From Nitrospira sp. (lineage in GTDB: Bacteria; Nitrospirota; Nitrospiria; Nitrospirales; Nitrospiraceae), in assembly GCA_030653545.1 (NCBI GenBank), contig JAURZE010000007.1, positions 62,001-126,000 of the forward strand: a DNA stretch of 64,000 nt, in the 5' to 3' direction. The number at the start of each line of letters is the position of its first letter. The stretch's first letter is position 1. Shown here piece by piece: positions 8,541-27,295 of this stretch. Position numbers and translations under genes: made by a program. The notes below the pieces were generated by a model. It did no database searches, had not been told where the DNA came from, and saw only the letters and a list, made by a program, of their open reading frames with translations.

Positions 8541-9086
8541 TTAGAGTTCCACGACGTCCCGGGTTCCGGGCTTGAATTCCTTGAAGACCACAAGGAGACG
8601 GCCGTTCTCGACCTTGGAGGGCAAGAGATCCAGCGGACGCGGCGCAGGCCCTGCCACCACCTTGCCTTCGATGTCGAACACGCTGCCGTGGCAGGGACAC
8701 TTGAACTGCTTCTCCTCGCCATCCCAACGATAGCCGCAGCCGAGATGGGTGCACATCGGAGAGAATACTCTGACCTGTCCGTCCGGTTGCTTGACAGCCC
8801 AGACCGCCTTCTGTGATTGGCTCTTCAAATACCCGTCCTGAATCGTCGTGACATGATCGAGTTGTTTGGGATCGCCGAGCGACACGTCTTCCAGACTGCC
8901 GACATCCACCCAGGGGCGCGCCCTCCGCTTCAAGGCCGGAGAAATGACATAGCCGGCCAGCGGAATCGCCAGCCCGAGCCCGATCAGACCGGCCGCCACC
9001 TTTGTGACCCAGCCGAAAAATGTCCGCCGCGTCCCGACAGGTGTATGGGCCCCTCCCGCTTCACCGCCCCCCTGGTGCTCGCTCAC
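8541..9086 (-). CDS. Rieske iron-sulfur protein of the bc complex
   Basis: This 181-residue protein has the [2Fe-2S] motifs CTHLGCGYRW and CPCHGSVFDI, which supply two Cys and two His. The N-terminus has TRRTFFGW followed by a hydrophobic anchor helix, as expected for Tat-exported Rieske proteins that stay membrane-anchored. The gene sits about 110 bases upstream of the cytochrome b/c fusion on the same strand. Its start overlaps the end of the TauE-like gene by four bases (ATGA), so the three genes are probably one transcript. Confidence 0.94.
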   Translation of the reverse strand: MSEHQGGGEAGGAHTPVGTRRTFFGWVTKVAAGLIGLGLAIPLAGYVISPALKRRARPWVDVGSLEDVSLGDPKQLDHVTTIQDGYLKSQSQKAVWAVKQPDGQVRVFSPMCTHLGCGYRWDGEEKQFKCPCHGSVFDIEGKVVAGPAPRPLDLLPSKVENGRLLVVFKEFKPGTRDVVEL

Positions 9087-9886
9087 AATAGTCCTCCCTT
9101 GATCTTCCAGAGATTATGGCCGATGAGGATCACCGCGACCGCCCAGGCGACGACAGCAAACGCTCTGGTTAAGCACTTGGGGGAGAGGGCGCGACTCACC
9201 TGTCTCCCTGCCAACATTCCGATAATGGCTCCGACGATCAAGACCGAGAGGACGCGCAGATCCAGCGGAGCGAGACGGACATGCGCAGCGACGCCAGCCA
9301 CCGCGATGAGCGTGATGATCAACAGCGACGTCCCCACTGCCACACGCATCGGAAATCCGAGCAGCAGGGTCAGCGCCGGTACTATCACAAACCCTCCCCC
9401 GACCCCGAAGAATCCGGTCAGCAGCCCGACCACCAGTCCAATTCCGCTCACTTTCACCCAACAGGTCCGCGGAAACAGATCCGCACAGATGCTACGCTCC
9501 TCAGGATCGTCCCGCAATGTCGTACGCCACCACATCTGCCCGGCTGCCACAATCATCAACACGCCGAAGAGCAGGAGCGTGATTTCCTCCCGCACCAGCC
9601 GGTGCCCTGCGGCTCCCACCCACCCGCCGAGCATCCCGGCCCCGCTCAACAGGAGCGCCGCCTTCACCTTGACAAGACCCGACTGAAAGGATTCGATAGC
9701 CCCGATGCCAGCAGCGGCGGCAACGAGCGCGAGCGAAAGGCTCACGGCTTCCTGCACGCTCGTCCCGAGCACATAGACCAGGAGAGGAATCGCGATCAGC
9801 GATCCACCGCTCCCCGTCACGCCCAGCGAGAGCCCCACCAGGCTTCCCACCACCACAGCAAGGACCGTTGGCTCTCCGCCCGTCAT
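9083..9886 (-). CDS. TauE/SafE-family membrane permease
   Basis: This 267-residue protein is almost wholly hydrophobic, with about eight membrane helices in two similar halves. Each half opens with a glycine-rich helix: GLSLGVTGSGGSLIAIPLL near the N-terminus and LTGFFGVGGGFVIVPAL in the middle, the pattern of the sulfite exporter TauE/SafE family. Members move sulfonates, sulfite or other small anions. It is coupled to the Rieske gene by a four-base overlap, and a broken sulfide:quinone-reductase-like gene lies just upstream. A sulfur-anion role is therefore attractive but inferred. Confidence 0.88.
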   Translation of the reverse strand: MTGGEPTVLAVVVGSLVGLSLGVTGSGGSLIAIPLLVYVLGTSVQEAVSLSLALVAAAAGIGAIESFQSGLVKVKAALLLSGAGMLGGWVGAAGHRLVREEITLLLFGVLMIVAAGQMWWRTTLRDDPEERSICADLFPRTCWVKVSGIGLVVGLLTGFFGVGGGFVIVPALTLLLGFPMRVAVGTSLLIITLIAVAGVAAHVRLAPLDLRVLSVLIVGAIIGMLAGRQVSRALSPKCLTRAFAVVAWAVAVILIGHNLWKIKGGLL

Positions 9887-9998
9887 GCGTGGCTTCTTCT
9901 TACGCTCATGACAGGTCCGTCATTCGACACGGTTTGTCATTCTTGTAGATCACGCTCCCTGCCGGCACCCCCTGAGCCAGGGAGCAGAGCAATCGTAT

Positions 9999-11108
9999 TC
10001 ATACCGGCCTATCCAGCTTTTCTATACCCAGCGCCTTCAGAATCACTTTCTCATAGCACGGCTCGCTGATCCCGCGCTTCATCTTATGGAGAAAATACTT
10101 CTCCAACCCGATCTTGGCCAGATGAACCCACTTGCCCTTCCTCGCCCAGGTCACATTTCTCGGCGCCATCTGCGGCAAGGCCACGAACGCGACGCCCGTG
10201 TCCCCCATGTCGGCCAAACAGATCGCGTTCCATGTCGCCGTATCGCGCTTGGGATCGTTCTCCATATCGGCCTTGATATTATGAACCGCCGCGGAGACCA
10301 TCGATTCGATCATGTAGCCGGTCTTGGGAGCGCCGGTCGGGATGGGGGTCACTTCGACCGGTGGTATGGCCACACAGACGCCGACCGAATAAATATTCTT
10401 GTACTTGGGGTTGGCCTGATAGGCATCGATGTTCACGAAGCCCTTGGGGTTGCACAAGCCCGGCGTGCCAGCTACCGCATCCACTCCGGCAAACGGCGGA
10501 ATGAACATCGAATAGCGGAACGGAACCTCCTGCCCGCCTTCCAACAGCACTTTGCCCGGCTGAATCTCTTTGATCGCACTATTCGGAATCGGCTTGATGG
10601 AATGTTCGGCGAACTCGTCCTCCATGAGGCGGCGCGAAGCTCCCACCCCGGCCAATCCCATATGCCCGACATAGGGCTCCGGCGTCACGAAATAGATCGG
10701 CACTTTCTTCCGCAGTTTCCTTTCCCGCAAGTCAGTGTCCAAAATGAACGCCATCTCATAGGCCGGTCCGAAGCAGGACGCGCCCTGAGCCGCCCCGACG
10801 ACGATAGGACCGGGATTCTTAAGGAAGGCCTGGTACGAGCCCCAGGCCTGCTCGGCATGGTCCACATTGCAAATGGATTGGGTGTAGCCGCTGGGCCCCA
10901 GTCCTGGGACCGCGCCGAAATTCAGCTTGGGACCCGTCGCGATGATCAGGTAATCGTACGGCACCTCGCCTTTTGACGTGATCACCCGATTCTACTCCGG
11001 TTCGATCCGGTCCGCCATGGCATGGAGATACTCGATGCCCTTTTTCTCCAACCCCGGCCCCAACGCAAAGCTGATATCCTTTCTCGTTCGCCACCCGACA
11101 GCCACCCA
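9999..11108 (-). pseudogene. Decayed sulfide:quinone reductase-like FAD oxidoreductase
   Basis: From a GTG at 10985 the frame encodes 328 residues typical of the Sqr-like flavoprotein family: YDYLIIATGPKL, GASCFGPAYEMAF, YSVGVCVAIPP with a family cysteine, and a C-terminal membrane-binding tail. Upstream, the same frame continues the family sequence (WVAVGWRTRKDISF, then KKGIEYLHAMADRIEPE) but is cut by a TAG at 10992-10994. Homology stops at about 11108, where a repeat begins. The first roughly 55 residues, including the GxGxxG FAD motif, are missing. A product from the GTG would lack the FAD fold, so I call it a pseudogene. A sequencing error could explain the stop but not the missing N-terminus. 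Confidence 0.8.
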
Positions 11109-11120
11109 CCTTTTCTCAGA

Positions 11121-11299
11121 AGCCGTCAGCTATCAGCAATCAGCTTTCAGCCATTCAAACGAGTCGTCATCCCTGATGGTGTGAGCCTTCACGCGCAAAA
11201 TGGATTCGGAATCATCCAGGTTTAATCGTCTCTATCATTGCTATCTCAGATATCACTCTCATGCTGATAGCTGAAAGCTGTCGGCTGACAGCTATTGGC
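11121..11299. repeat. Inverted pair of degenerate AGCTGATAGC-type word repeats
   Basis: Two tracts built from near-copies of 7-8 base words face each other: 11121-11152 (forms of AGCTATCAG and CAGCTTTCAG) and 11263-11299 (forms of GCTGATAGCTGAAAGC). They are about 110 bases apart. The left tract begins within about 12 bases of the point where homology to the Sqr-like protein ends; the right tract covers the last codons of the cytochrome c'-like gene. A related pair occurs at 19278-19341. Confidence 0.75.
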
Positions 11300-11759
11300 T
11301 CAGACCGAATCGATACAAATCGTGGCATGTCGTGCAGCGCGCCGTCATACTCGACAAACGCTGCAGAATCTGTTGCGGCGTTTCCTTCTGCGCGATCGCA
11401 TCGGCCAGGGCATCCATATCACGATGGATCGACATTCCCATCTGTTTGAACGGCAGCGGAAGCTTCACCATGATCGCCGGATCCACATCTGCCGCCATAC
11501 CCATGCCGGCGGCGCGCGCCGCCTGTTCTACGGCTTTCATGTCACCGTCCGGAGTGCTCAATCCTGTCACCACGCCGTGCACCGCCTTCAGCAGCTGCCG
11601 CATTTCCCCAAGGATCAGATCCCGCTCGCCTGAAGCCAGTCGTATTTCCATGCGACCGTCAGCTCCTTGGGTCGTCAAACCGTTCACGAAAAACCAACCG
11701 GCTCCGACGAGCGTGACGACCCAGAGCACAACCGCAACGATGCAGAAGCGTGTTTTCAT
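11292..11759 (-). CDS. Cytochrome c'-like (class II) periplasmic haem protein
   Basis: This 155-residue protein has an N-terminal signal/anchor helix (FCIVAVVLWVVTLVGAGWFF), a helical body, and a single CTTCH haem-binding motif close to the C-terminus (residues about 145-149), as in class II cytochromes c' and cytochrome c-556. ATG 11759 is preceded by AAGGAACTAAG; the frame is open five codons further. Such proteins bind NO or shuttle electrons in the periplasm. The uncleaved-looking helix may anchor it. The stop lies within a repeat tract that could have reshaped the C-terminus. Confidence 0.8.
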   Translation of the reverse strand: MKTRFCIVAVVLWVVTLVGAGWFFVNGLTTQGADGRMEIRLASGERDLILGEMRQLLKAVHGVVTGLSTPDGDMKAVEQAARAAGMGMAADVDPAIMVKLPLPFKQMGMSIHRDMDALADAIAQKETPQQILQRLSSMTARCTTCHDLYRFGLSQ

Positions 11760-11770
11760 CTTAGTTCCTT

Positions 11771-12211
11771 TCAAGGATTTTTCGCGGGATACCCCGCCAC
11801 GCCGGCGCCATAGTCATAGACCAGACTCCCGCCGTAATAACTGGCCACCAAGAGCACAACAACTCCCACAATGCCAAGTCCCACGGAGACTGCGCGCCGC
11901 TCCCTGACGAACCCGAGCCCCGTGATAACTCGCCATCCCAGCAGCCCGAGGAAAATCCAGAACGTCGCAAAACCCAACCCCTCATGCAGCTCAAGCACCG
12001 ACTCTGGAACGCCGCTGTGCTCAACGGCTTCTTCAGCCATATGACCGGAGATTACGGCCGCGAGCGCGCCTGCAAGTCCCAACACCAGTGTATAGAGACT
12101 GACCGTCCGGCACTCATCCCCTCGCCAACGAAGCCCGAGAAGGTCGAAGAACACCGCAGCCGATAAGAGCGCGATCGGAAAGTGCACCAACATGGGATGG
12201 ATGGGATGCAT
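11771..12211 (-). CDS. DUF2231-family membrane protein
   Basis: This 146-residue protein starts MHPIHPMLVHFPIALL, the hallmark of DUF2231, and has four membrane helices. Histidines in HPIHPMLVHFP and ELHEG lie at membrane edges and could bind haem or metal. AGAGGAGGTCAC precedes the ATG. It ends 11 bases before the cytochrome c'-like gene, so both are probably co-transcribed, and a role in membrane electron transfer is plausible. The family's function is not established. Confidence 0.85.
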   Translation of the reverse strand: MHPIHPMLVHFPIALLSAAVFFDLLGLRWRGDECRTVSLYTLVLGLAGALAAVISGHMAEEAVEHSGVPESVLELHEGLGFATFWIFLGLLGWRVITGLGFVRERRAVSVGLGIVGVVVLLVASYYGGSLVYDYGAGVAGYPAKNP

Positions 12212-12430
12212 AAGTGACCTCCTCTTGCCTGCCCATCAGAGTGCAAGCACAGGGCCGTACCTCCCCCGCAACAATCGGAGCTATTCATGCTGCAAATTCA
12301 TGTAAATGCCCTTCATTGCGCGCGGCGACCCGGTAAGACGGGGAGTCTTTCCACAGTGACATGGATCGCACTGTCGCGGAATGGGCCAGTCACTGAAATG
12401 GAAAGGATGCGGGTGGCGGGAGGGGGGGAA

Positions 12431-12475
12431 GAGAAAACAGCACAGGCCTCCAGACATGCATCCGGCGGCCTGTGC
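12431..12475 (-). terminator. Probable rho-independent terminator of the beta-propeller gene
   Basis: On the minus strand a 9-bp perfect stem (12467-12475 with 12440-12448; GCACAGGCC paired with GGCCTGTGC) with an 18-base loop is followed by TGTTTTCTC. It begins 11 bases after the stop of the propeller gene. The T-run is short, so strength is uncertain. Confidence 0.6.
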
Positions 12476-12485
12476 ATCGCACTCG

Positions 12486-13748
12486 TTATTTTCTAACCGC
12501 GATTCCGTGAGTATCGGCGGTTTCTTTATCGTCTTTCTTATTCGAAATGGTCGCCTGCCCTTTGTAATGCCCGACTTTGCCACCGGCATCCACATGGATC
12601 ACACCGACACCGGGGATGGTCCCCTTGGCGTTGTGCGCGACCTTATCGTTGCCGGTTAATGGATTGGGGCCACGAAGACCGACGAAGACGTACTGTCCAT
12701 CCGGCGCGACATCCATCAAATCGGGAGCCGGATCCTGGTTCGCGTCACTCACCAGGCCGATTGAACCTACCGAGAAGTTACTGAGCGTGTCGATGATCTC
12801 GACGTTATTGCCGGCCCGATCCGCACTCCAGACATAGCGGCCGACGCCGATCATGCCGTGCGAATCGGCAAACTTGTCGTCCCGCTGCGAAACCAGTTTC
12901 GCGGACACTTTGGCGGGCAAGCCTGAGATGTCCAGCGCATACACATCGTAGGAGAGGGGCGCCACCGGCCACCCGCCGCCGGAATTGATATACATCGTGT
13001 CACCGACTTGCACTCCGCCGCAGCCGGCCGGATGAATCTGGTTGTTGTCCAGCATCGCCACTGCCTTCATCGGAGTCGCCGTCACATCGAACACCAGCAA
13101 CCCGCCGCCGCGCAGCGTCACGAACGCATAGTGGCTCGACGATTCGGTGATGGGACAGATCGGCGACGTATCGGGACGCTCGCCCCCTTCGAACGCAACC
13201 AGGTTCACGACATCTTTCTCCGGGTCGAAGCTGAACTTATGCGCGGCATAGTCCGTCCAGATCCGGATGAATTTCTTTTCCGCAATATTCGCGGCAATCG
13301 CCATCTTCTGATCCGGCGTCGGCCAGGCGGCATGGACATTCTTTCCCATGGAGAGACAGGCGTCCGGCTTCTTTGTCGCCGCATCCATGAACAGGACGTG
13401 GCCGCTCAGGAAAGAGATGATCGCGTGATCCTGATTCTTGTTGAAGAACAGCATATGCGGACGGCGCACCGCCTTCTTGGTCGCCTCCTCGCAGAACTTG
13501 CCGATATCGCCGGCAAAGTCGATCGTCATCGTCGGCTTTGCCGAGGCAGGATTCGCCGCCAGCTGCGCACCGTCGTAGATATGGAGATAGCCGCCGCTCT
13601 CCTTGCCGGTATCAGATTGATCGGTCAACCAGACTTCATAGGCAGAAACGGGCGCCGCGCTGCCCAATGCCGCCGCCAAGGCCACACATCCACCGATCAT
13701 TGTAGCGAACATCGCTGTTCGCCCTGTCACACCTGTCTGTCTCATCAT
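12486..13748 (-). CDS. Secreted beta-propeller protein (YVTN-like)
   Basis: This 420-residue protein has a signal peptide ending at about residue 36 (GSAAPVSAYEVW). The body has repeated strand units of a beta-propeller, for example GYLHIYDGAQL, GHVLFMDAATKK, GGLLVFDVTATPMK and GQYVFVGLRGPNP. Start ATG 13748 has AAGGAGG six bases upstream. Periplasmic propellers of this kind commonly bind haem or copper or act as scaffolds near electron-transfer enzymes. Several His residues and scattered Cys are present, but no CxxCH. It is isolated by a terminator on its downstream side. Function not assigned. Confidence 0.82.
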   Translation of the reverse strand: MMRQTGVTGRTAMFATMIGGCVALAAALGSAAPVSAYEVWLTDQSDTGKESGGYLHIYDGAQLAANPASAKPTMTIDFAGDIGKFCEEATKKAVRRPHMLFFNKNQDHAIISFLSGHVLFMDAATKKPDACLSMGKNVHAAWPTPDQKMAIAANIAEKKFIRIWTDYAAHKFSFDPEKDVVNLVAFEGGERPDTSPICPITESSSHYAFVTLRGGGLLVFDVTATPMKAVAMLDNNQIHPAGCGGVQVGDTMYINSGGGWPVAPLSYDVYALDISGLPAKVSAKLVSQRDDKFADSHGMIGVGRYVWSADRAGNNVEIIDTLSNFSVGSIGLVSDANQDPAPDLMDVAPDGQYVFVGLRGPNPLTGNDKVAHNAKGTIPGVGVIHVDAGGKVGHYKGQATISNKKDDKETADTHGIAVRK

Positions 13749-13876
13749 TGCTGGCCTCCTTCTGCATCACGTGACGCGAACGAGACAAATTACCCGCTCG
13801 CCCCTGGCACCCTGGTGCGTAGCTTAGAAGGAATGCTGTAGGAGCGCAACCGACCGACTCAGGCAACCGGCAGCCG

Positions 13877-14356
13877 CTACGACCGGGCCAGCATGACGGC
13901 GGCAAATAAGACGGCCAGGGAGAGCACGAGGGCCACGCGAGGGAGCCAGGAAGCCGCAGCCAGAACGGTCCGGTCCGAGGCAGATCTTTTGTCAGATGGA
14001 AGGGCAAGAATCGCCCGGACGCGAGGGCCGAGCACGAGATCGTGAGCCAGGGTCATCAGCAGCAGCACTGCAACCAGCGAGAGCTTGACCCCCAAGGGGG
14101 ATGGCCATCGGGCAGGCTCGAAGAGCGGCCATCCGTGGGACAAGACCAGCATGGGACCGGTCAATAACAGAATAGCGACCGCTCCCCATACGACCAAACG
14201 AAACCTCTTTGCCGACGTCCTGAATAACATGCCGGCTTCGGGTTTCGAGGCCAGCGCGCGATAGGACGGGGCCAGCACCAGAGAAAGAAAGATCGTTCCG
14301 CCGACCCAACCGACCGCTGCGATGAGATGTATCCAGACGAGAGCAAATTGCGACAT
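13877..14356 (-). CDS. CopD-like integral membrane protein
   Basis: This 159-residue protein has four membrane helices. It begins FALVWIHLIAAVGWVGGTIFLSLV-like, matching CopD/PcoD and related membrane proteins in which a helix histidine (WIHLIAAVGW) is conserved. Other histidines lie in VLSHGW and LAHDLVLGP. Members take part in copper uptake or haem-linked electron transfer. The location between a secreted propeller and an outer-membrane barrel, and the multicopper oxidase further along, fit a copper link, but this is inference. Confidence 0.72.
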   Translation of the reverse strand: MSQFALVWIHLIAAVGWVGGTIFLSLVLAPSYRALASKPEAGMLFRTSAKRFRLVVWGAVAILLLTGPMLVLSHGWPLFEPARWPSPLGVKLSLVAVLLLMTLAHDLVLGPRVRAILALPSDKRSASDRTVLAAASWLPRVALVLSLAVLFAAVMLARS

Positions 14357-14435
14357 GATCGAGCGACTCTACGACTTCTGCAAGACAAGCATCAAGGGGG
14401 CTGCCTGCGTGACGCTCGATGGAACCGTGTTAAGG

Positions 14436-14460
14436 GCGCGCTGAGCGAGGCTCAGCGCGC
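14436..14460 (-). terminator. Strong hairpin downstream of the outer-membrane protein gene
   Basis: A perfect 11-bp stem, GCGCGCTGAGC paired with GCTCAGCGCGC, encloses a three-base loop. It lies 65 bases past the stop of the 14525-15238 gene and 80 bases before the start of the CopD-like gene. On the minus strand CCTTAACAC follows, so there is no clear T-run. It may terminate, slow or stabilise the transcript. Confidence 0.5.
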
Positions 14461-14524
14461 TGGATTCCTCATCGCCGTCAGACTGCGGCAGATGCACAAC
14501 GAAATTCACCCCCCCCCCGTTTCG

Positions 14525-15238
14525 TTAAAACGAAATCCCCACATATGGACCGACCTGGAAGTAATCGTTCACCGTATTGGTCATGCGGGCTGTCAGGTGA
14601 TAGCGGGCATCGACACCAAGCTTGAGCGCCTTCCACACCTGCACCTCAAACCCCGCACCGAACTGCACACCCATATCGAGATATTGGGTCTTGTTCGAGG
14701 GTGGACTGATCACATGAAAATCCAGTCCTATCGGAATAATCCAGGGCCGAAACATGCTGCCTTCCATAAACTTAATCTTCGGCGCCACGTTAATGGTCAT
14801 CATGGTGAGTTGGACTTCCTGCGGATCGACAGTGGGACAGGTGCCGCCGAGCGTACAGGTCGCGATGCTTCCTGCGGCGTTGTTCACCCTATGAGAATTA
14901 ATCCGGTTGAACTGCAACCCGATCTCCCCCAGGACCGAGGTCTTATCCAATGCCCCCCACACATCCTTGGAGAGCATCAAGTCAAGACCCGCGCCCGCAT
15001 ACCACCCTGCATTGCCTCCGTTGACTGAACCGGCCCCCAGCACCCCGTTCGTATCTGTAAAAATCTGCGTCCCGCGATCCCGGTTCAAGTTCATGAACCC
15101 GCCCTTGAAGAACACCTGATTGCCGGTTCCAAACTCCTCAGCCGAAGCCGGCGACACACCAGAGACAACGAGCCCCCCGGCGATCGCAACTCCGACACAC
15201 CACACTCCAATGCTCCGCACAATTCTCTGAACCTGCAT
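14525..15238 (-). CDS. Outer-membrane beta-barrel protein
   Basis: This 237-residue protein has an export signal (IGVWCVGVAIAGGLVVSG, cleavage after VSPASA) and alternating hydrophobic strands such as FFKGGFMNLNRDRGTQI and GVQFGAGFEVQVWKALKLG. It ends VGPYVGISF with a terminal phenylalanine, the usual recognition signal for barrel assembly. ATG 15238 has AAGGAGGGGAACATC upstream; the frame is open nine codons further. The family is probably the small OmpW/OmpA-like barrels. The stop codon lies within a 7-bp inverted repeat beside a run of ten C residues. Confidence 0.8.
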   Translation of the reverse strand: MQVQRIVRSIGVWCVGVAIAGGLVVSGVSPASAEEFGTGNQVFFKGGFMNLNRDRGTQIFTDTNGVLGAGSVNGGNAGWYAGAGLDLMLSKDVWGALDKTSVLGEIGLQFNRINSHRVNNAAGSIATCTLGGTCPTVDPQEVQLTMMTINVAPKIKFMEGSMFRPWIIPIGLDFHVISPPSNKTQYLDMGVQFGAGFEVQVWKALKLGVDARYHLTARMTNTVNDYFQVGPYVGISF

Positions 15239-15483
15239 GATGTTCCCCTCCTTGATTTGGCGCACAAGAGCTTGCCCGGCTCTCCATCTGGCTTACTGTC
15301 TTGCACTTGCCGGCCCGAGGCATGAGCAGCGTAAGCATGTGGTTCACACTTCTGAACATCGTGACGTTCCTCTTCTTAGCCCTGATACGATCGTCGAACG
15401 CATCGGCTAGACTCGTAGCGGCCTCACGCGGGCGAGTCGCACTCATCACCAGCGCCTCACCCTGTCCCTACTTACGCTCGACG

Positions 15484-16032
15484 TCACACTTGCAACATGC
15501 ACCGACTGATTCGCTGTTTCTGCTCGGCAGTCAGCCGCATCTCGGCCAAGACAAACAGCACCCGTTCCTCGCAGGAGATATGTCCGCGATAACGACGGAT
15601 CAGTGCGCGAAGTGCTGCGTTCAGCGTTCCCGGGCCACCTAGATTCCCCGCCACCGCTGAATCTCGACCATCGGCCCATTTTCCCCTGAGCCTTCTCATC
15701 ACCGCCGCCGCGTCGGCTTTCAGCATCCGGTGATCGTCTAAGAAGCTCTGGAACTGTTCTTGCCTTTCCTGCTTCCGGCCAAGGATTCGCTGGAGGTCTG
15801 CGACTAACACCTCTTCCCGTTTGAAATGAACTTCCACGGGGCCGGTAAAGAATTGGAGCAGTTCCCGCAGCGTGCCCCGGTCCGTTCCCTTCGCCACACC
15901 GCTCCCGACGGAGCGAGGACTCATCGCCGTTTCGATCATGGCCAGTTGATCCAGAATCATTTCGTGCTCTCGCTTGAGAAGGGCAACCGGATCGACTGTG
16001 CGACTCGCTTGTCTGCATCTTTGAGGCACCAT
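15484..16032 (-). CDS. Hemerythrin HHE-domain protein
   Basis: From the ATG at 16032 about 182 residues form a four-helix bundle with the non-haem di-iron ligands of the hemerythrin fold: REHEMILDQL, EVHFKREE, LDDHRMLK and GHISCEER. These proteins bind O2, sense oxygen or NO, or repair iron centres. The frame is open up to 16125, but that extension (a basic, cysteine-containing stretch) has no family support; conserved sequence starts at DPVALLKREH. It sits near the Fnr-type regulator, which suits an oxygen or NO response. Confidence 0.83.
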   Translation of the reverse strand: MVPQRCRQASRTVDPVALLKREHEMILDQLAMIETAMSPRSVGSGVAKGTDRGTLRELLQFFTGPVEVHFKREEVLVADLQRILGRKQERQEQFQSFLDDHRMLKADAAAVMRRLRGKWADGRDSAVAGNLGGPGTLNAALRALIRRYRGHISCEERVLFVLAEMRLTAEQKQRISRCMLQV

Positions 16033-16362
16033 CGTTCCAGGGTCCCCTGTACAGAGGCTCGAACGTACGAGCAACGTAGCCGCCTTCTGTCGCGCACACC
16101 GTACCGGACGTGAAGCCCGCCTCACACTGGGATTGGCCGGCCGGGCCTATGATTTATCTCAAGGTTTCGGATAGGCCATTGGGCCTATGCCTGCAATGGT
16201 GTGGCGAGGGGCACGCGGCGAGCGAAGCGAGACTTGTGCGAAAAGCGGGACGGGGGAGAGGCTAAGGGGTTCGGAATTTCGAACTCTGAACGTTGAACTT
16301 GGTGTCGCGCCTGTCGCGCTTCACGAAGGACGTTTCACGGATACCGTTTGACGGGTTACGGT
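16033..16362. repeat. Intergenic region with word-repeat tract
   Basis: This 330-base gap lies between the hemerythrin gene and the Fnr-type gene. Between about 16275 and 16353 it holds tandem near-copies of two short words: forms of GAACTCTGAAC / GTTGAAC, then forms of CGTTTCACGG / CGTTTGACGG. This resembles the other word-repeat tracts at 11121, 19278, 36232 and 47756. The rest shows no gene that I recognise; the hemerythrin promoter should be here. Confidence 0.5.
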
Positions 16363-17103
16363 TCAGCGTCTGGAAATTCTGGCGAGGCGGTCTGGATTCA
16401 GCAAAGTAATGGTTCTTCCATCGATAGCGAGCAACCCCTCATCCCGGAACACGCTGAGCAGGCGGATGGCGGTTTCGACCGTGATCCCGGCCATCTCCGC
16501 CACTTCTTCCCGTTTGAGCGTGAGTCCGACCCGGACACCATCGTCGTCTTTTTTGCCGAATCGATCACCGAGTTCCAGCAGCAGGCCGGCCAGCCGCTCG
16601 CGTGCCGTCTTGAACGTGAACTGATCGAGATGATCCATATTGACCCCGACCTCCGTACTGAGGAGTTGGATCAGCTTGATCGCCAGTTGAGGATTTCCGT
16701 GGATGACTGCGAGGTAGCGTTCCTTGTCGATGACACAGACTTGAGAGGGCTCCAATGTCTCGCACGTCACTTCATGAAGGGCTCTCTCCCCAAATACGTG
16801 CTTCTCGATCAGCTCACCAGGGCCCAAGATCCGGACGATCTGCCGCTGACCTCTCGCCGAAGAACGAGTCAACTTGACCTTGCCCGCGCACAACACATAG
16901 AGGCCCAGACACACATGGCCTTCGTAGAAGACGGTCTGGTGAGGTGCGTAATCGAGGGTGCGTTTGATTTTCTGAAATTCGGCGAGGTCGCTTCCTTCGA
17001 TATCGCACAGCACGACCTTCGCGCGAAGCGTGCAGGTGTCGCAATGCTCGATGGGACAGGGCTTCCGCTTCACGGCTTGCCGATCATTATGGCAGGACAA
17101 CAT
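16363..17103 (-). CDS. Crp/Fnr-family regulator with N-terminal cysteine cluster
   Basis: This 246-residue protein has a cyclic-nucleotide-type beta-barrel (about residues 40-150: GLYVLCAGKVKLTRSS, ILGPGELIEKHVFGERALHE) and a C-terminal winged helix. The recognition region is LKREEVAEMAGITVETAIRLL, close to the Fnr consensus. The N-terminus has cysteines at 4, 16, 21 and 24 (CPIEHCDTC) and another about ten residues later, the right kind of cluster for an oxygen-labile [4Fe-4S] as in Fnr. It is therefore likely an O2- or NO-responsive activator. No clear ribosome site precedes the ATG at 17103. Targets are unknown. Confidence 0.85.
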   Translation of the reverse strand: MLSCHNDRQAVKRKPCPIEHCDTCTLRAKVVLCDIEGSDLAEFQKIKRTLDYAPHQTVFYEGHVCLGLYVLCAGKVKLTRSSARGQRQIVRILGPGELIEKHVFGERALHEVTCETLEPSQVCVIDKERYLAVIHGNPQLAIKLIQLLSTEVGVNMDHLDQFTFKTARERLAGLLLELGDRFGKKDDDGVRVGLTLKREEVAEMAGITVETAIRLLSVFRDEGLLAIDGRTITLLNPDRLARISRR

Positions 17104-17342
17104 GGCAGCACAACGTTATTGCCCAGGTCGTTGAGCAGTATGTGGTGAAGATACCGGCGAGGGAGCGGCATCCCATCCTTCATGAAAGCGATGGATGGGA
17201 AGCCGACCATCATCATATCCTCAGGCAATGTAAAGACATACTTCGGCAGGCGGCGGCCAGTTCACCGTCATGCCTAGACGGCAGTGCCGCCGGCCCGAGA
17301 CATCAGCCTGATGAAGAAATCCCTCACGGCGCTTCTCCTGCC

Positions 17343-20286: not shown

Positions 20287-20399
20287 TATTGTTCTCCGGC
20301 CTCCTTCGTCAGTCCAAGGTTGAGGTTAAAGTTGAGCGCCCATCCATTATACAGAATACGGGGATCACAACCCTAACCTCAGCCACGCCCTGACCCTCG

Positions 20400-20469: not shown

Positions 20470-23400
20470 TTACTTCATTGCGGTCGGAATGGCTTTCACT
20501 GCGGGCTCCACTTCCGCCTGCTTGGCGCCCATACCGGCTGCGCCGAGCGGTTGGATCCGTGAATCGCCGGCTGGCAACACACGGAGGTAGCCCCACTGTC
20601 CGGACTGCGTGTAGGGCAGCCGAGCGTTGGACCAGACGAAGTCGCCCACCTGACGATACGGACCACCCGCACCGCCACGGAGGAACACGTCCAGTACTTC
20701 CGATCCGGCGTACTCCACGACGCTGATCATGTCGGCACCCGGCATGTACGGCTCGATCGGCCACTCATGGCCTTCGACGCCGAACATCCCATTCTGCTCG
20801 CTGTTCGCACCGATGACATGGATGCGAATCGCGTCACCCGCATGCGCCTCGATCAGAGGCGTGATGGGATCCTCGGGCTTATCCACCGCACAGGGCTGGA
20901 AAATCTTCCCGAGCGAGCAGCCTTGCTCTTCGCGGAACTTGTACGGTTCGGCGCGGTAGTTCACCGACGTCAAACCGGCGACGTTCTGCACATAGGGCAT
21001 GAACGCGGTTCCGATGATGTTGTCTTCGTCCTGGAAGAACAGGGCGACATCGCGATAGTTCCGCTTGCCGGCATTTTCGGACAAGCTGGTATCCACGATG
21101 ACGTCCGCACGCCAGGTATTCTTCTGCGACACATCGGCACCGGTCACCGGGTCGCGATACTGCGAGCCCTTCGGACCGACGACAATGGCACCGTACAATC
21201 CGTTACGCGGATTGACCACGATGTTCCCACCATCCCACACCAGCGACGTCGTTTCCTTGTTCGCCGGATGCGCGTAGTAGGTGTAGCCGCGGCTTTCGCC
21301 AGGACCGATGGTCTGATCGCCGCCATTGTTGCCGACGTTCAGGCCCTGGCTGTCTTTCGGATCGAAGGCCAATCCAGGCGCAAAGAACGACGCCCGGCTC
21401 GCCTTCATCTTGTTCTTCAGATTCACCTTGATGCAATCACCAAGGTTGACGCGCAGCGTCAGCGGATTCGGGGTGACCCCGCTGGCTACCGTCGTGGCTT
21501 CCGCTTCGAGCGCGAAGATCTTGCCTTCCGGCATGGTCATTTCGATCTTCCGCTCAAAGTCCACTTCGATCGCATCCGGCGCCTTCGGGTTGAGCTTCAT
21601 CGGGCGATCCAACGCCACCACGCTGAAGTTCTTCACCGGAGCATCAGCCGGACAGACCGAGCTGGGGGTTGCTGGAATCCCGAGGGGATTGGTCCCCCTG
21701 GGCAACGGCTTCAGATCCGCCGTTTCCTTATCGAGCACGCGCACGATACCCCATCCGCCTTCGGCGAAGTGTGACGTTCTGCCGTTGAAGTGGATGTAGT
21801 CACCGGGCATACCCTGGAATCCACCCGCCTTGGTCACGAGGTCATACCGCTCGGCGATCCCGACGTGAATCGAGTTCTTCCGGTTGGCATCCGCCGCATA
21901 CCGTTCCGTGAGGAAGGTATGGCCGGCGATCGTCCAGACGTGCGATTCGTTCATCAGCTGGTGCAACAGACGGAACACCATGGTGTCGCCCGTGTACGCC
22001 CGCAGGAGCGGTGTACCCGGATCCCCATGGATCGCGCTGCTGAACAACTTTGACGTATCCGGATTGTTCGAGAGGCGCTGCGCAAACGGAGCCGCGCGGA
22101 AGTTGAAACCGCTGCCGGTCGTATGCGTTCCGCCGTTGATGTACTTGTTCGGTGCGTTCATGATCTTATCGGGCATCTGGAACGACACCGTCTTGCCTGC
22201 TTCCAACGCCACTTCGATCGGCTGTCCCGGAGGATTGCCGGCTTCGATGACGTTGACCGTGTGCGGCACCGTGTCGTGGATGGAGACCATCAACTCACGG
22301 AAGCTGCCGCTCACACCGGCACCGATCGGCTCGTTGCTGTGAATGTCCGCAATCGGACCGCTCCACACCAGCTTGCCGTTCTTCGGATCGTGATAGGTGG
22401 ACCCGAACGGCTCCACGATCGTCACGCCGAACCCGCCATGCGGCCAGGTCGTCGCGCCGAACGCGTGGTCATGCCAAAACACGGTCCCCATATCCACGTC
22501 CACCCACCACCGATACCGCACGAACTCCGGCGACACGAGGTCGTTCGCCGGGTGGCTGTTCTTCAACGGCTTGAAGAAGGTCACCTGATCGCCCTTGATG
22601 TCCTTGATCCGGGCGACTTCGGAGCAGCTCTTATCCCGCGGCAGTGACGCCGTGGCATCGTTGCCCTTCTCCAAACAATCCATGCCCACCATGACTTCGG
22701 TGTTCACATGGAACGGCGTGGCACCAGGCGCCAGTTGAATCTTGATCGAGCTGGCTCCGGCTTTGGCACCGCCGACGATCTTGGCGACCATCGGAGCGGG
22801 CAATCCGTGCTTGGTCTTCTTCCCCCACATCGTGAAGGGACGCACGGACATTTCATACTCCATACCGGAGATGACGCCGTCCGAGTTCCCTGTGTCGAAC
22901 TGGAAGAAATGGGGATGGATGTTGATCTTGGACGACTGGAAATTCGTGTAGTCGTCGTCGTCCCACTCGCTGGTGAGGACCAAGTCCACGCAGTCATACA
23001 CGTTGGCGCGAATGACCGCCGGAAGCTTGAGATCGTCGTTGGCTCTGGTCAACCGCTCTTCTTCGTGGAGCAGATAGATCAGCCCATCCTTGTCCACCAT
23101 GGCCGGCTCTTTCCCCTGCTTCTTGGCAAGGGTGATCGGCATGCGGACGAAGTGAATGTTATAGAACTTCCGGTTCGCATTGACCGGGCAGAGACTCCAC
23201 CGTCCCTGCTCGCCGGGCTGGGCCGGCTCGGAGGTCCGCTCACCGTTGGCATCCTGGTGGATCGGCTCCAACCAGGGGGCGCCACTGTGGTTCGCTGAGA
23301 ACGGCACGCGCTTGCCGAAGTGCGGCTTGAACAGCGGCCAGGCCATCTTGCCCGTCGTCGGGTCAAAGAGAATAGCCGGTCTGGTGCTGTCATCCCACTT

Positions 23401-25410
23401 GGCGGCCCACTGATACTTGGGGTTCTGAGCCGTGCTCTCGCGCTCGCCCCGGGCAATGTTGCCGTCCCACTTCCAGTCCCACACCGTCGAGTCATAGGCC
23501 ATAATCTGGCCCTTCTCGTCGTTGGTGTGGCCCGGTTGACCCTGAGCCGGGACAAACATCTCGACCCAATCCTTGACGTTCACGATCACCGGATCGGATT
23601 TCCAGTTCGTCTTCTGGCTCTTGTCCACGATCTTGAAGGTCTTGCCGAACCAGTCGAGGGTTGAGCCGATCAACTTGTCCGACGAGACACCCTGCCGCAT
23701 GCGGCCCTGACGATCGGGCAACTCACGCATATCCGGCATCGTGTCGGTATGCGCCGCGCCGACTTGGAGGGTATTGTAGAACCGGCCGTACCCCCACATG
23801 CCCGCAACATAGTGATGCGCCACGTGGCAGTGATAGAGGAACTCGCCGGCCAGATGCTGACAGCCACCGCCGCCGCACTCCGGTTCCAGGTCGAGCGCTT
23901 CGGACGGACCGACCACTTCCACGTCCACCCGATCGGACTTGGTCCGAATGACCGGATACTTCACCGGACCATCCTGACCCTTATACCAATGCTCTTCCTG
24001 ATCGGAACGCGGGCTGCGCTGCCAACGGATGGTTCCGCTATGGGGATGGTGGGAGTGGAACACTTCCGATCCACCGTGCACCAACCGCCACTTGACCGGG
24101 TCACCGAGGTAACCGCGGGCCACCGTGGTGGGCGGATCGCCGAATGTATAGGCGCTATACGCCATCGACTCGTCCTCGAACCCGAAATATTCATGCTGCA
24201 AGTGCATCTGATCGATGCCGAACGGCTCGCTGCGATAGTTGATCGCGCGGCCACCCGGACGATACGCGTCCGTCAACGGATCGCGCTGCGGCAAGAAGTC
24301 ACCCTTCTTGTTCAACGGACGGAAGGCTTCGTCGCCGATTTCGTGATAGAAGAGCACGAATTCGCGGAAGTCCGGTCCGGAGCCGTTGTCGATCATGACT
24401 TCCCATCCACCCTTGGTCTCGGGCGCGGCGCCCGTGCCGAGCGGATCGAGATACTTGGAGCCCTTCGGCTCGACGATGAAGGCGCCGAACAGGCCCAACA
24501 CCGTCAACTCCCGGTCGTGGCTCCATGAATGGAACTGCCGCACACCTTCCTGCATGCTCGGATGGATATACCATTCGAAGTCCTGGGTCTTGCCTGGCGA
24601 GACGACCGTGTCGGGGTTCGTCGTCGTCGCGGGCTTCCCGGTGGCGCTCACGATCATGCTGGAGGCCTGGATGACCAAGCTGCCATCCTCGCCCTCCAAC
24701 TGGTTGCGCAGCGTCATCTTCACGCAGTCGCCCTGGTTGGCACGGAGCACCAAGGGCTGAATCGCATCGCCCTGGTTTCCGGTCGTCACGGCGCCCGGAT
24801 CAAATCCGTCTTTTTCACGGGCGGCCTTGTTCTTGGTCTCCTCGGCACGGACTTTGTCGATTTCATCCGTATGGACATACATGTAGCCGGGATAGAAATC
24901 GAGCCACCGGTTCAAGCTGATCTCGATGTTGATCATCGAGACATCGAACTTCTTGACCGGAGCATTGGCCGGGCACTTCCCGCCGGACGTCATGACAGGC
25001 TCACCCTTGGACCCGTCCGACATGAGCAGGAAGCTGCTGCCGTCCTGCCCCATGTACTGGTGCATCATCGACATCTCGTTGAACGCACCGGAGGTCGGGG
25101 TCGCCTGCGCATCTTTCTTCGCCTGCTCCCCCAGCTTCTCCATCAAACGATGGTGCTGCATCTCCATCTTCTCTGCATTGCCGGCACGACCTTCCATGGC
25201 GTTTTCCACCACGGTCTGGCCCTTGAGCTGTTGCGTCCAACCCGGCATCGCGACCGGAGTCGCGTGACCGTCATGCGACGGCTCACCAGGTCCTGCCGCA
25301 AACAGCCCTGGTGCAACCACCAGACTGCCCGTCAGCAACACGCTGTGCAGCATCAACGACAGGCGGCTACGCCGCCGCTGACGCTGAGATTGAAGTTGAA
25401 AAACCCTCAT
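20470..25410 (-). CDS. Very large periplasmic multicopper oxidase, six cupredoxin domains in three repeats
   Basis: About 1,646 residues, far above the 500-600 of laccases and above typical MnxG-type oxidases of about 1,200. It has a signal peptide (LHSVLLTGSLVVAPGLFAAG). Three repeat units each start with a CPxNAPxK-type motif, at roughly residues 144 (CPANAPVKKF), 739 (CPVNANRKF) and 1252 (CPADAPVKNF), and each holds two cupredoxin domains. Copper motifs lie in unit 1 (HSWSHDRE near 291, HSHHPHSG near 452, HCHVAHHYVAGMWGYG near 527) and unit 2 (HPHFFQFD near 829, WHDHAFG near 978). Unit 3 has lost them. The ATG at 25410 has GGGGGAGG upstream; a start at 25464 is possible. It probably oxidises a metal or small molecule with O2; the substrate is unknown. 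A long structured leader and sigma-54 signals lie upstream. Confidence 0.88.
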   Translation of the reverse strand: MRVFQLQSQRQRRRSRLSLMLHSVLLTGSLVVAPGLFAAGPGEPSHDGHATPVAMPGWTQQLKGQTVVENAMEGRAGNAEKMEMQHHRLMEKLGEQAKKDAQATPTSGAFNEMSMMHQYMGQDGSSFLLMSDGSKGEPVMTSGGKCPANAPVKKFDVSMINIEISLNRWLDFYPGYMYVHTDEIDKVRAEETKNKAAREKDGFDPGAVTTGNQGDAIQPLVLRANQGDCVKMTLRNQLEGEDGSLVIQASSMIVSATGKPATTTNPDTVVSPGKTQDFEWYIHPSMQEGVRQFHSWSHDRELTVLGLFGAFIVEPKGSKYLDPLGTGAAPETKGGWEVMIDNGSGPDFREFVLFYHEIGDEAFRPLNKKGDFLPQRDPLTDAYRPGGRAINYRSEPFGIDQMHLQHEYFGFEDESMAYSAYTFGDPPTTVARGYLGDPVKWRLVHGGSEVFHSHHPHSGTIRWQRSPRSDQEEHWYKGQDGPVKYPVIRTKSDRVDVEVVGPSEALDLEPECGGGGCQHLAGEFLYHCHVAHHYVAGMWGYGRFYNTLQVGAAHTDTMPDMRELPDRQGRMRQGVSSDKLIGSTLDWFGKTFKIVDKSQKTNWKSDPVIVNVKDWVEMFVPAQGQPGHTNDEKGQIMAYDSTVWDWKWDGNIARGERESTAQNPKYQWAAKWDDSTRPAILFDPTTGKMAWPLFKPHFGKRVPFSANHSGAPWLEPIHQDANGERTSEPAQPGEQGRWSLCPVNANRKFYNIHFVRMPITLAKKQGKEPAMVDKDGLIYLLHEEERLTRANDDLKLPAVIRANVYDCVDLVLTSEWDDDDYTNFQSSKINIHPHFFQFDTGNSDGVISGMEYEMSVRPFTMWGKKTKHGLPAPMVAKIVGGAKAGASSIKIQLAPGATPFHVNTEVMVGMDCLEKGNDATASLPRDKSCSEVARIKDIKGDQVTFFKPLKNSHPANDLVSPEFVRYRWWVDVDMGTVFWHDHAFGATTWPHGGFGVTIVEPFGSTYHDPKNGKLVWSGPIADIHSNEPIGAGVSGSFRELMVSIHDTVPHTVNVIEAGNPPGQPIEVALEAGKTVSFQMPDKIMNAPNKYINGGTHTTGSGFNFRAAPFAQRLSNNPDTSKLFSSAIHGDPGTPLLRAYTGDTMVFRLLHQLMNESHVWTIAGHTFLTERYAADANRKNSIHVGIAERYDLVTKAGGFQGMPGDYIHFNGRTSHFAEGGWGIVRVLDKETADLKPLPRGTNPLGIPATPSSVCPADAPVKNFSVVALDRPMKLNPKAPDAIEVDFERKIEMTMPEGKIFALEAEATTVASGVTPNPLTLRVNLGDCIKVNLKNKMKASRASFFAPGLAFDPKDSQGLNVGNNGGDQTIGPGESRGYTYYAHPANKETTSLVWDGGNIVVNPRNGLYGAIVVGPKGSQYRDPVTGADVSQKNTWRADVIVDTSLSENAGKRNYRDVALFFQDEDNIIGTAFMPYVQNVAGLTSVNYRAEPYKFREEQGCSLGKIFQPCAVDKPEDPITPLIEAHAGDAIRIHVIGANSEQNGMFGVEGHEWPIEPYMPGADMISVVEYAGSEVLDVFLRGGAGGPYRQVGDFVWSNARLPYTQSGQWGYLRVLPAGDSRIQPLGAAGMGAKQAEVEPAVKAIPTAMK

Positions 25411-25529
25411 ACACGGCCTCCCCCTGTTATGACCGCCTCTTTCGTGGGCGGACTGTTGAAACACACCGATGAAACAACCGACTATGAATACCCTTCAACT
25501 GCCCTCCGAGTACCTTCTTTGCTAAAAGT

Positions 25530-25648
25530 ACCGGCCTCCGACTCTCTCCGGCCTCTCCACTGGAGGGAATTAGAGCTGGTGAAGGATCCTTCTTGCGAAG
25601 GAAGGGCTATTCGGAGGCCGGTCCAAAATGACCCAGACCTTCACCAGC
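25530..25648 (-). ncRNA. Structured 5' leader with nested and crossing stems
   Basis: In the minus-strand transcript between the sigma-54 promoter and the oxidase start, stem A pairs 25648-25638 with 25585-25575 (GCTGGTGAAGG with CCTTCACCAGC, 11 bp perfect). Inside it, 25602-25587 forms a 6-bp hairpin closed by a GCAA tetraloop of the GNRA type, and a small GGUC/GACC hairpin is also possible. A second perfect 11-bp pairing joins 25622-25612, in the loop of A, to 25540-25530, outside A. The order A'-B'-A-B is that of a pseudoknot or of two competing stems. I recognise no known riboswitch class. It is called from complementarity alone. Confidence 0.5.
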
Positions 25649-25662
25649 GAGACGTTTTACCC

Positions 25663-25677
25663 GCAAGCGTTGTGCCT
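25663..25677 (-). promoter_or_regulatory. Sigma-54 (-24/-12) promoter of the multicopper oxidase
   Basis: On the minus strand AGGCAC, five bases, then TTGC matches the -24/-12 consensus TGGCAC-N5-TTGC with one change. The predicted start would be near 25651, directly before the structured leader and about 240 bases before the oxidase ATG. A sigma-54 activator gene is the next gene upstream. Confidence 0.7.
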
Positions 25678-25900: not shown

Positions 25901-27295
25901 TTACTGGAGGCCGTATTCTCTGAGCTTATTGTAGAGGCCCGCCCTGCTGATCTTGAGCATCTTGGCTGCCCTGAGTCGATTCCCGCCGGTCTTCCTCAAG
26001 GCCTCGACGATGCGCGTCCGTTCCGTGAGGCTGACTGCATCCCGGACCACCGTTCGCAGTCCTTCTTCGGACACCTTCGATCCCAACGCCACAATATCGC
26101 CGCACGTCAGATCCGGACCTGTCGTTGTGACGACCGCCCGCTCAATGTAGTGCTGCAACTCACGAACATTCCCCGGCCAGGCCGACTCACTGAGCGCATG
26201 CATCACATCGGAGGAGACTGTCCTCGGCGACTGACGATGGCGCTTACAAGAGGCAACCACAAAATGGTCGACTAACAAAGGAACATCTTCTCGCCGCTCT
26301 CGAAGCGGAGGGAGAAACAACGGCAAGACCGCTAGACGATAATAGAGATCCTGCCGGAACGCCTTGGCCTTCACTAACTCGCACAGATCCTTATTGGTGG
26401 CCGACACCACCCGCACATCGACTTTGATCGGCTGGTTGCCCCCCACCCGTTTCACTTCCCCTTCCTGCAGCACCCGCAACAACTTAGCCTGGAAGGTCGG
26501 CGTCGTATCGGCGATTTCATCCAGAAAAATCGTCCCGCCGTCGGCCTCTTCGAATAGCCCCCGCTTATTGGCCGTGGCCCCGGTAAACGATCCCTTCATA
26601 TGGCCGAATAGCTCACTCTCCAACAACGTCTCCGGAAGCGATCCACAATCCACCACTACGAACGGTTTATCCCGGCGATCGCTCAGGCGATGAATGGTCT
26701 TGGCGACCAATTCCTTGCCCGTGCCGCTCTCTCCCTGGATCAAGACCGTCGCCTGGCTCTCTGCCACCAACGCAATCATGTCGAAGAGTTGCTGCATCGC
26801 CGCGCTGCGGCCGATGAGATCGCCCAAATGCTCCCGCACCATCGGAGCCGGAAGATCGTCGGGCACCTGAAGTGCCGGTCGATGAGAGGCCTGAGAAGGG
26901 GGCGTGAACAAGACCAGCATAGAGGCGACCTGCCCGCCACTGGCAACCAGAGGAAACGCCTGGTGCATCCCGCAGGCCGCTCCGTTCCCTCCGGCCGTGC
27001 AGGAGACCGACTGAATCCCCGGCGACTCAAACACCTTGGTCGCCGGACATGTCCCGCAGGGATCACTACGGTGCGCAAACGCCTCGTAACACTTCGCATG
27101 ATACGCCTCAGCCTTGTCGGCTCCGTAGTCCGTCCAGGCCGCCGAGTTGGCGTACACCACATTGAAGTCGCGATCCATCACCGCCACGCGATCGGACATC
27201 CCGCCCGCAAGCTGCCGGATCGCTTCAATCCGCGCCGCGATGATTGGATCGTCGAAAGGGGACTGCACAGCTCCATCCGCCTGAGATCCGGCCAT
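25901..27295 (-). CDS. Sigma-54-dependent activator with cysteine-rich PAS sensor
   Basis: This 464-residue protein has an N-terminal PAS domain (about 25-130) with cysteines in [20 protein letters not shown] and ACGMHQ. The AAA+ domain (about 155-385) has GESGTGKE as Walker A, the sigma-54 contact loop KGSFTGA, and TIFLDEIAD as Walker B. A Fis-type helix-turn-helix closes it ([22 protein letters not shown]). There is no receiver domain, so it should sense its signal directly. The clustered cysteines could bind metal, an Fe-S centre or sense redox. It ends about 240 bases upstream of the oxidase promoter and is the natural candidate activator of that gene. Confidence 0.9.

Follow-up and report, generated by a model that had tools for sequence, protein, structure and literature searches.

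Structured 5′ leaders in which a loop segment pairs either with a decoy or with the Shine-Dalgarno (SD) sequence are known from translational riboswitches and attenuators with anti-SD switching, and the leader described here, which precedes a multicopper oxidase (MCO) gene of Nitrospira, resembles them in this design. Unlike them, it has no Rfam family and no known ligand, and its anti-SD is the near-invariant tip of a hairpin accompanied by SD-like decoys. Qrr (sigma-54/LuxO) and CrcZ (sigma-54/CbrB) are free small RNAs that depend on sigma-54; like the Nitrospira leader, they combine a sigma-54-dependent regulatory RNA with a nearby sigma-54 activator gene, whereas the leader precedes an mRNA of 1646 codons and has no recognisable terminator. 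The Listeria SAM riboswitches SreA and SreB, for which an additional action in trans on prfA has been described (PMC3179153), are comparable in that a leader RNA is proposed to serve both its own operon and the SD region of another mRNA; the Nitrospira leader differs in having a paralog of the led gene as its trans target, in being a predicted sigma-54-dependent transcript and in that its action in trans is a prediction. Regarding the genes, the Mn-oxidase genes mnxG and mcoA of Pseudomonas putida GB-1 have predicted sigma-54 promoters and, as in Nitrospira, encode MnxG-type MCOs present as two oxidases per genome, and no leader RNA is reported for them in the part of PMC11930936 used here. 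Mn oxidation by the Nitrospira oxidases is putative, unlike that by the P. putida GB-1 enzymes.

The Leader and Its Locus

The window, i.e., the whole stretch of 64,000 nucleotides of Nitrospira sp. DNA that was analysed, carries the leader on the minus strand, and the window coordinates given below refer to that strand unless otherwise stated. A sigma-54 promoter was recognised by its sequence motif, GGCAC-AACGC-TTGC (−24/−12; 25663–25676). With C25663 counted as −12, the predicted transcription start is 25651, 3 nt before stem B (the 5′ strand of P1), which begins at +4. The gene led by this transcript, mco1 (20470–25410, ATG at 25410), encodes an MnxG-type MCO of 1646 aa (Pfam Cu-oxidase_3, E = 1.6e-11), and the closest solved protein was found to be the Mn oxidase MnxG (PDB 9bxa, E = 1.3e-82), a match that is evidence of family and not of substrate. 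The promoter is adjoined by a gene for a sigma-54 activator with AAA+ and Fis-type HTH domains (25901–27295), which is likely the activator of the mco1 promoter and is often kept upstream of the element in other genomes. Genes for a response-regulator receiver protein, a histidine kinase and a second NtrC-type regulator also lie behind the promoter. On the other side, 3′ of mco1, the stretch 8541–17148 codes for Rieske-type, FAD-dependent reductase-like and c-type-cytochrome-like proteins, as well as CopD-like, hemerythrin and Crp/Fnr proteins, which suggests a redox module of unassigned role.

The preliminary description of this locus had reported two perfect 11-bp complementary pairs crossing one another within 119 bases, directly downstream of the predicted start and about 120 bases before the oxidase ATG. 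All of these pieces were recovered, with B running from 25648, A′ ending 120 bases before 25410 and the A pair extending to 12 bp; when these 119 bases were shuffled 20,000 times, two crossing perfect 11-bp pairs never arose, and even one such pair occurred in only 29 cases. In the RNA, the order is B, A, GCAA hairpin, B′ and A′. B (GCUGGUGAAGG, 25638–25648) and B′ (25575–25585) form the 5′ and 3′ strands of stem P1, which encloses two hairpins. The first, P2 (GGGU...GGA[CCGGCC]UCC...GCCC, 25604–25634), is supported by alignment and fold and carries at its tip a near-invariant 12-mer, GGACCGGCCUCC (25613–25624, hexaloop 25621–25616), that is complementary to SD sequences; A (ACCGGCCUCCGA, 25611–25622) covers the tip of P2 together with its 3′ side. 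The second, P3 (CCUUC-GCAA-GAAGG, 25587–25602), is supported by covariation. Downstream of P1, two SD look-alikes follow, namely D1 (25548–25553), the first GGCCGG copy complementary to the P2 hexaloop, and D2 (UCGGAGGCCGGU, 25530–25541), which is A′ and resembles the SD site of the paralog mco2. A further hairpin, P4 (CCGCC-CACGAAAGA-GGCGG, 25433–25451), lies directly before the extended SD of mco1, GGAGGCCG (25414–25421).

The conserved fold is thus a three-way junction of P1, P2 and P3, by which the reading as two equal crossing stems was set aside, A being the tip of P2. P3 is a separate arm beside P2 within P1, so that the nesting of the GCAA hairpin in A, as first described, does not hold in this fold. 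The GNRA loop of P3, present in the window copy, is kept only among close relatives. As the preliminary description had suggested, some of the pairings are mutually exclusive, the A:A′ helix competing with the apex of P2 for the same bases; the complete 12-bp A:A′ helix is limited to part of the family. The core fold of the window copy has a predicted energy of −38.2 kcal/mol (z = −5.3), and equal stability was reached by none of 200 shuffles. By raw count, 47 of 68 copies have a strong hairpin of changing sequence in the last 48 nt ahead of the SD. No intrinsic terminator was found on the minus strand after D2 in the window copy, and a free small RNA would therefore need processing.

Distribution and Novelty

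When 175 genomes of the family were searched at the DNA level, matches were mostly limited to the element itself. A covariance model built from 29 sequences (R1) matched 151 of these 175 genomes and reached another family of the order, and a second model, R2, comprising the 84-nt core and built from 54 diverse sequences, matched 184 of 236 genomes of the order. Among 396 sampled genomes of the phylum, none outside the order gave a match. Carriers known by name include N. defluvii and N. moscoviensis. A search against Rfam 15 gave no match at E values up to 5, and none at the gathering cut-off for ten loci, in line with the initial impression that no known class was involved and excluding a known Rfam class. 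No description of the leader element was found in the literature searched, and Nitrospira is not mentioned in two surveys of bacterial noncoding RNA (PMC11109978, PMC8632094). The supposition of an undescribed, structured RNA in a sigma-54 leader was thereby borne out, and its existence as an RNA element is regarded as virtually certain.

Nearly every copy was found upstream of an MnxG-type MCO gene, a consistent position before one gene family, as is expected of cis-regulatory RNAs; the idea of a free-standing small-RNA gene with no relation to the oxidase was discarded on this ground. A motif of the type GGCAY-N5-TTGC was found in 76 of 94 copies; in all but one of these it lies 9–13 nt before the element, and this fixed distance from a −24/−12 motif is that expected of a sigma-54-dependent transcript. 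The remaining 18 copies, in which the motif is missing, mostly lead a more distant paralog and keep the fold; their SDs are in some cases the G-U version GGAGGCUGG and in others GGAGG only (L047 and the second copy of L045). One such copy lacking the sigma-54 motif occurs in the genome studied here (L096:8838–8918, minus strand; G000:C26), leading a third oxidase paralog with the SD GGAGGCUGG. Tandem oxidase genes with one element copy each were observed in L037 (5013 and 10790), L043, L044 and L045.

Two copies are exceptions to the linkage with MCO genes. In a sister family, the element at L110:4106–4189 (minus strand), with its sigma-54 motif present, leads a gene for an outer-membrane-protein-like product, homologous to window positions 14525–15265, and not an oxidase. 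The copy at L115:3422–3501 (plus strand) has an altered loop, GGACCGACCUCUG, and lies on an 11-kb contig with no MCO gene and with RND efflux genes on the opposite strand; it looks like a decaying remnant.

Covariation and Transcribed Strand

Compensatory changes were evaluated in an alignment made by MAFFT and not fitted to structure (A3), in which both sides had changed at 8 of the 11 P1 pairs and at all five P3 pairs. The covariation score of 0.318 compared with 0.173 in shuffles, was reached by none of 500 shuffles and was lost when the partners were slid. In the covariance-model alignment of 94 matches, which is fitted to the structure and thus biased towards it, P1 was 99.7% paired, with double changes at 11 of 11 pairs. 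Conserved secondary structure with compensatory changes, the mark of a structured cis-regulatory RNA, was therefore found. The lack of conservation or covariation by which the preliminary description would have been refuted was not observed, as the element occurs in the 184 genomes matched by R2 and stem B covaries. The fitted alignment of P1 contained about 55 G-U cells but no more than 3 unpaired ones; this fixes the transcribed strand and shows that selection acts on the minus-strand RNA.

Predicted Pairing of the P2 Tip with Shine-Dalgarno Sequences

The GGCCUCC of the P2 tip is complementary to the mco1 SD, GGAGGCCG, and GGAGGCC served as the SD in 64 of the 76 sigma-54 copies (starts were called automatically, and a few were mis-picked). 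Of 183 genes with a GGAGG-type SD in 1.19 Mb of the same genome, 17 have CC directly after the GGAGG and 6 have CCG, so that GGAGGCC is not the ordinary SD of this genome. Regarding the look-alikes, 52 of the 76 sigma-54 copies contain an exact GGCCGG in the interval from P1 to the SD, compared with a mean of 4.1 in mononucleotide shuffles. The 12-bp A:A′ helix was present in close relatives, with only GGCCGG or nothing elsewhere, and it offers no covariation test because it hardly varies. Contrary to what had first been supposed, the partner of the P2 tip that is conserved across the order is the SD and not A′.

When the 271-nt leader was folded without constraints, the P2 tip paired with the SD. 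The predicted duplexes of the P2 tip were strongest with the mco2 SD (−31.1 kcal/mol), followed by D2, the mco1 SD and a third paralog, with values of −27.3, −20.0 and −19.7 kcal/mol, respectively; the duplex of the 16S anti-SD with the SD reached −11.4 kcal/mol. Both the 12-mer and the SDs are near-constant, which leaves this pairing without covariation, and single mismatches exist (e.g., GGAGGCCAGUCC in L213). From complementarity and its conservation, pairing of the P2 tip with an SD, in cis or in trans, is considered probable.

Similar SDs recur in the mco1 locus. The second gene (start 20286) has the extended SD GGAGGCCGG (20296–20304), a type kept at gene 2 in most family-f1 orthologs. 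GGAGGCC-type SDs are located at 20304, 18316 and 13759, before genes for a carboxypeptidase-regulatory-like protein, an FGE-sulfatase-like protein and a 420-aa protein without a Pfam match. Apart from these three and mco1, the sole GGAGGCC-type start in the window belongs to a doubtful 65-codon ORF on the plus strand.

The mco2 Start Region

In the paralog class mco2, with about 64–68% identity, R2 matched nothing in the 1.5 kb upstream, and the promoter is sigma-70-like. In the 330 nt upstream of 30 mco2 loci, neither GGCCTCC nor a sigma-54 motif was found, and CCGGCC or GACCGG was only scattered, by which an anti-SD acting in cis within mco2 leaders was rejected. The mco2 start region reads AAGGAGGCCGGUCC-AUG, and the segment before the AUG, GGAGGCCGGUCC, is the exact 12-nt reverse complement of the leader 12-mer. 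Because GGA is itself the complement of UCC, what counts as independent in this 12/12 match is mostly the hexaloop, plus the SD core. Among 49 distinct sequences, the last 14 columns of the mco2 start region were 88–98% conserved, compared with 35–73% in the preceding 26, a figure raised by the use of the motif itself to retrieve some of the sequences.

The pattern GGAGGCCGGTCC-N0-2-ATG was found in 82 of the 175 family genomes, with about six matches for the reversed control pattern, and 29 of 30 fetched loci with the pattern were MCO starts; the site in the present genome is C15:66306. In a protein search made without the motif (about 30 mco2 loci), GGAGGCC was present at 24 of 32 leaderless MCO starts. 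Sister copies are related, and these counts are thus not independent observations. The complementarity to a target start region is conserved, as is expected of a trans-acting small RNA. The mco2 site was present in seven of the 22 family genomes in which no leader was detected; the most complete of these seven reach 92–94%, so that assembly gaps and real absence are indistinguishable. In L230, L234 and L235, an extra copy of GGAGGCCGG lies roughly 60–70 nt before the mco2 start and is perhaps another decoy or target site.

Proposed Mechanism and Alternative Explanations

We favour, and consider reasonably probable, a reading in which a sigma-54-dependent leader RNA controls the translation of oxidase messages by pairing with their SDs, with that of mco1 in cis and probably with that of mco2 in trans. 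This reading builds on the observed conservation, covariation, strand, promoter, gene linkage and complementarity, together with the conservation of the latter, from which we infer that the pairing takes place in cells and lowers translation. Transcription by sigma-54 would yield the leader RNA as the start of the mco1 mRNA, and its first ~75 nt would fold into the three-way junction displaying the anti-SD tip of P2, GGA[CCGGCC]UCC. When free, this tip would pair with an extended SD and block ribosomes, its target in cis being the GGAGGCCG of mco1 and its predicted target in trans the 12-nt match GGAGGCCGGUCC before mco2. The look-alikes D1 and D2 (GGCCGG) could take the same tip and release the SD, giving alternative RNA states. 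The putative trans-acting form would be either the mRNA leader or a processed small RNA, and the signal between the states may be sigma-54 activation alone or possibly Mn, Cu or another cue. An exchange of isozymes, in which switching on the activator would let the mco1 leader, or a piece cut from it, shut off mco2 translation while the look-alikes tune or cancel the block on mco1, is put forward more tentatively, as a possibility somewhat short of even.

The same junction might instead be a ligand pocket. In a true riboswitch, the junction with the P2-loop:D pseudoknot would bind a metal (e.g., Mn or Cu) or a small molecule, and the ligand would decide the availability of the P2 tip to the SD, with action in cis only. 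The compact junction, the near-invariance of the loop and its conserved pairing with downstream sequence would all suit such an RNA, for which the SD pairing would be a ready expression platform, and a single gene family downstream is typical of riboswitch candidates. However, most of the invariant bases are accounted for by SD-type pairing, which leaves little from which a pocket could be formed; the junction strands and P3 are variable, and the 12-nt match at the leaderless mco2 would go unexplained. No feature pointing to ligand binding as such was found in the element, and a riboswitch is considered unlikely.

Still less probable is a protein-binding site or an mRNA-stabilising 5′ structure, with one protein recognising the shared GGAGGCCG sites of the locus. 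P1 does lie only a few nt from the predicted 5′ end, and GGAGGCC is found at four starts of the locus and at gene 2 of most family-f1 relatives, but a protein site would not require an exact complement plus motif copies in the leader, and this complement is the most invariant part of the element. Conservation at the DNA level, with an activator or IHF binding region 3′ of the promoter and an incidental RNA fold, hardly merits consideration despite the nearby sigma-54 promoter and activator gene, since the covariation is strand-specific, P1 pairing being kept through many base pairs with G-U accepted on the transcribed strand only, and the fold persists in copies without a sigma-54 promoter.

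Significance

The element constitutes an uncatalogued RNA class spread through an order whose nitrifiers matter globally and for which descriptions of regulatory RNAs are few. Its association is with one gene family, the giant MnxG-type oxidases, which is poorly understood. The prediction is sharp, with one 12-nt segment, two named targets and simple compensatory mutations. As far as the sequences suggest, the message of one oxidase may control the making of both its own oxidase and the sister enzyme. If this is true, a leader RNA would cross-control a paralog of the gene that it leads, and MnxG-type oxidases might be subject to an RNA-based exchange of isozymes across the Nitrospirales.
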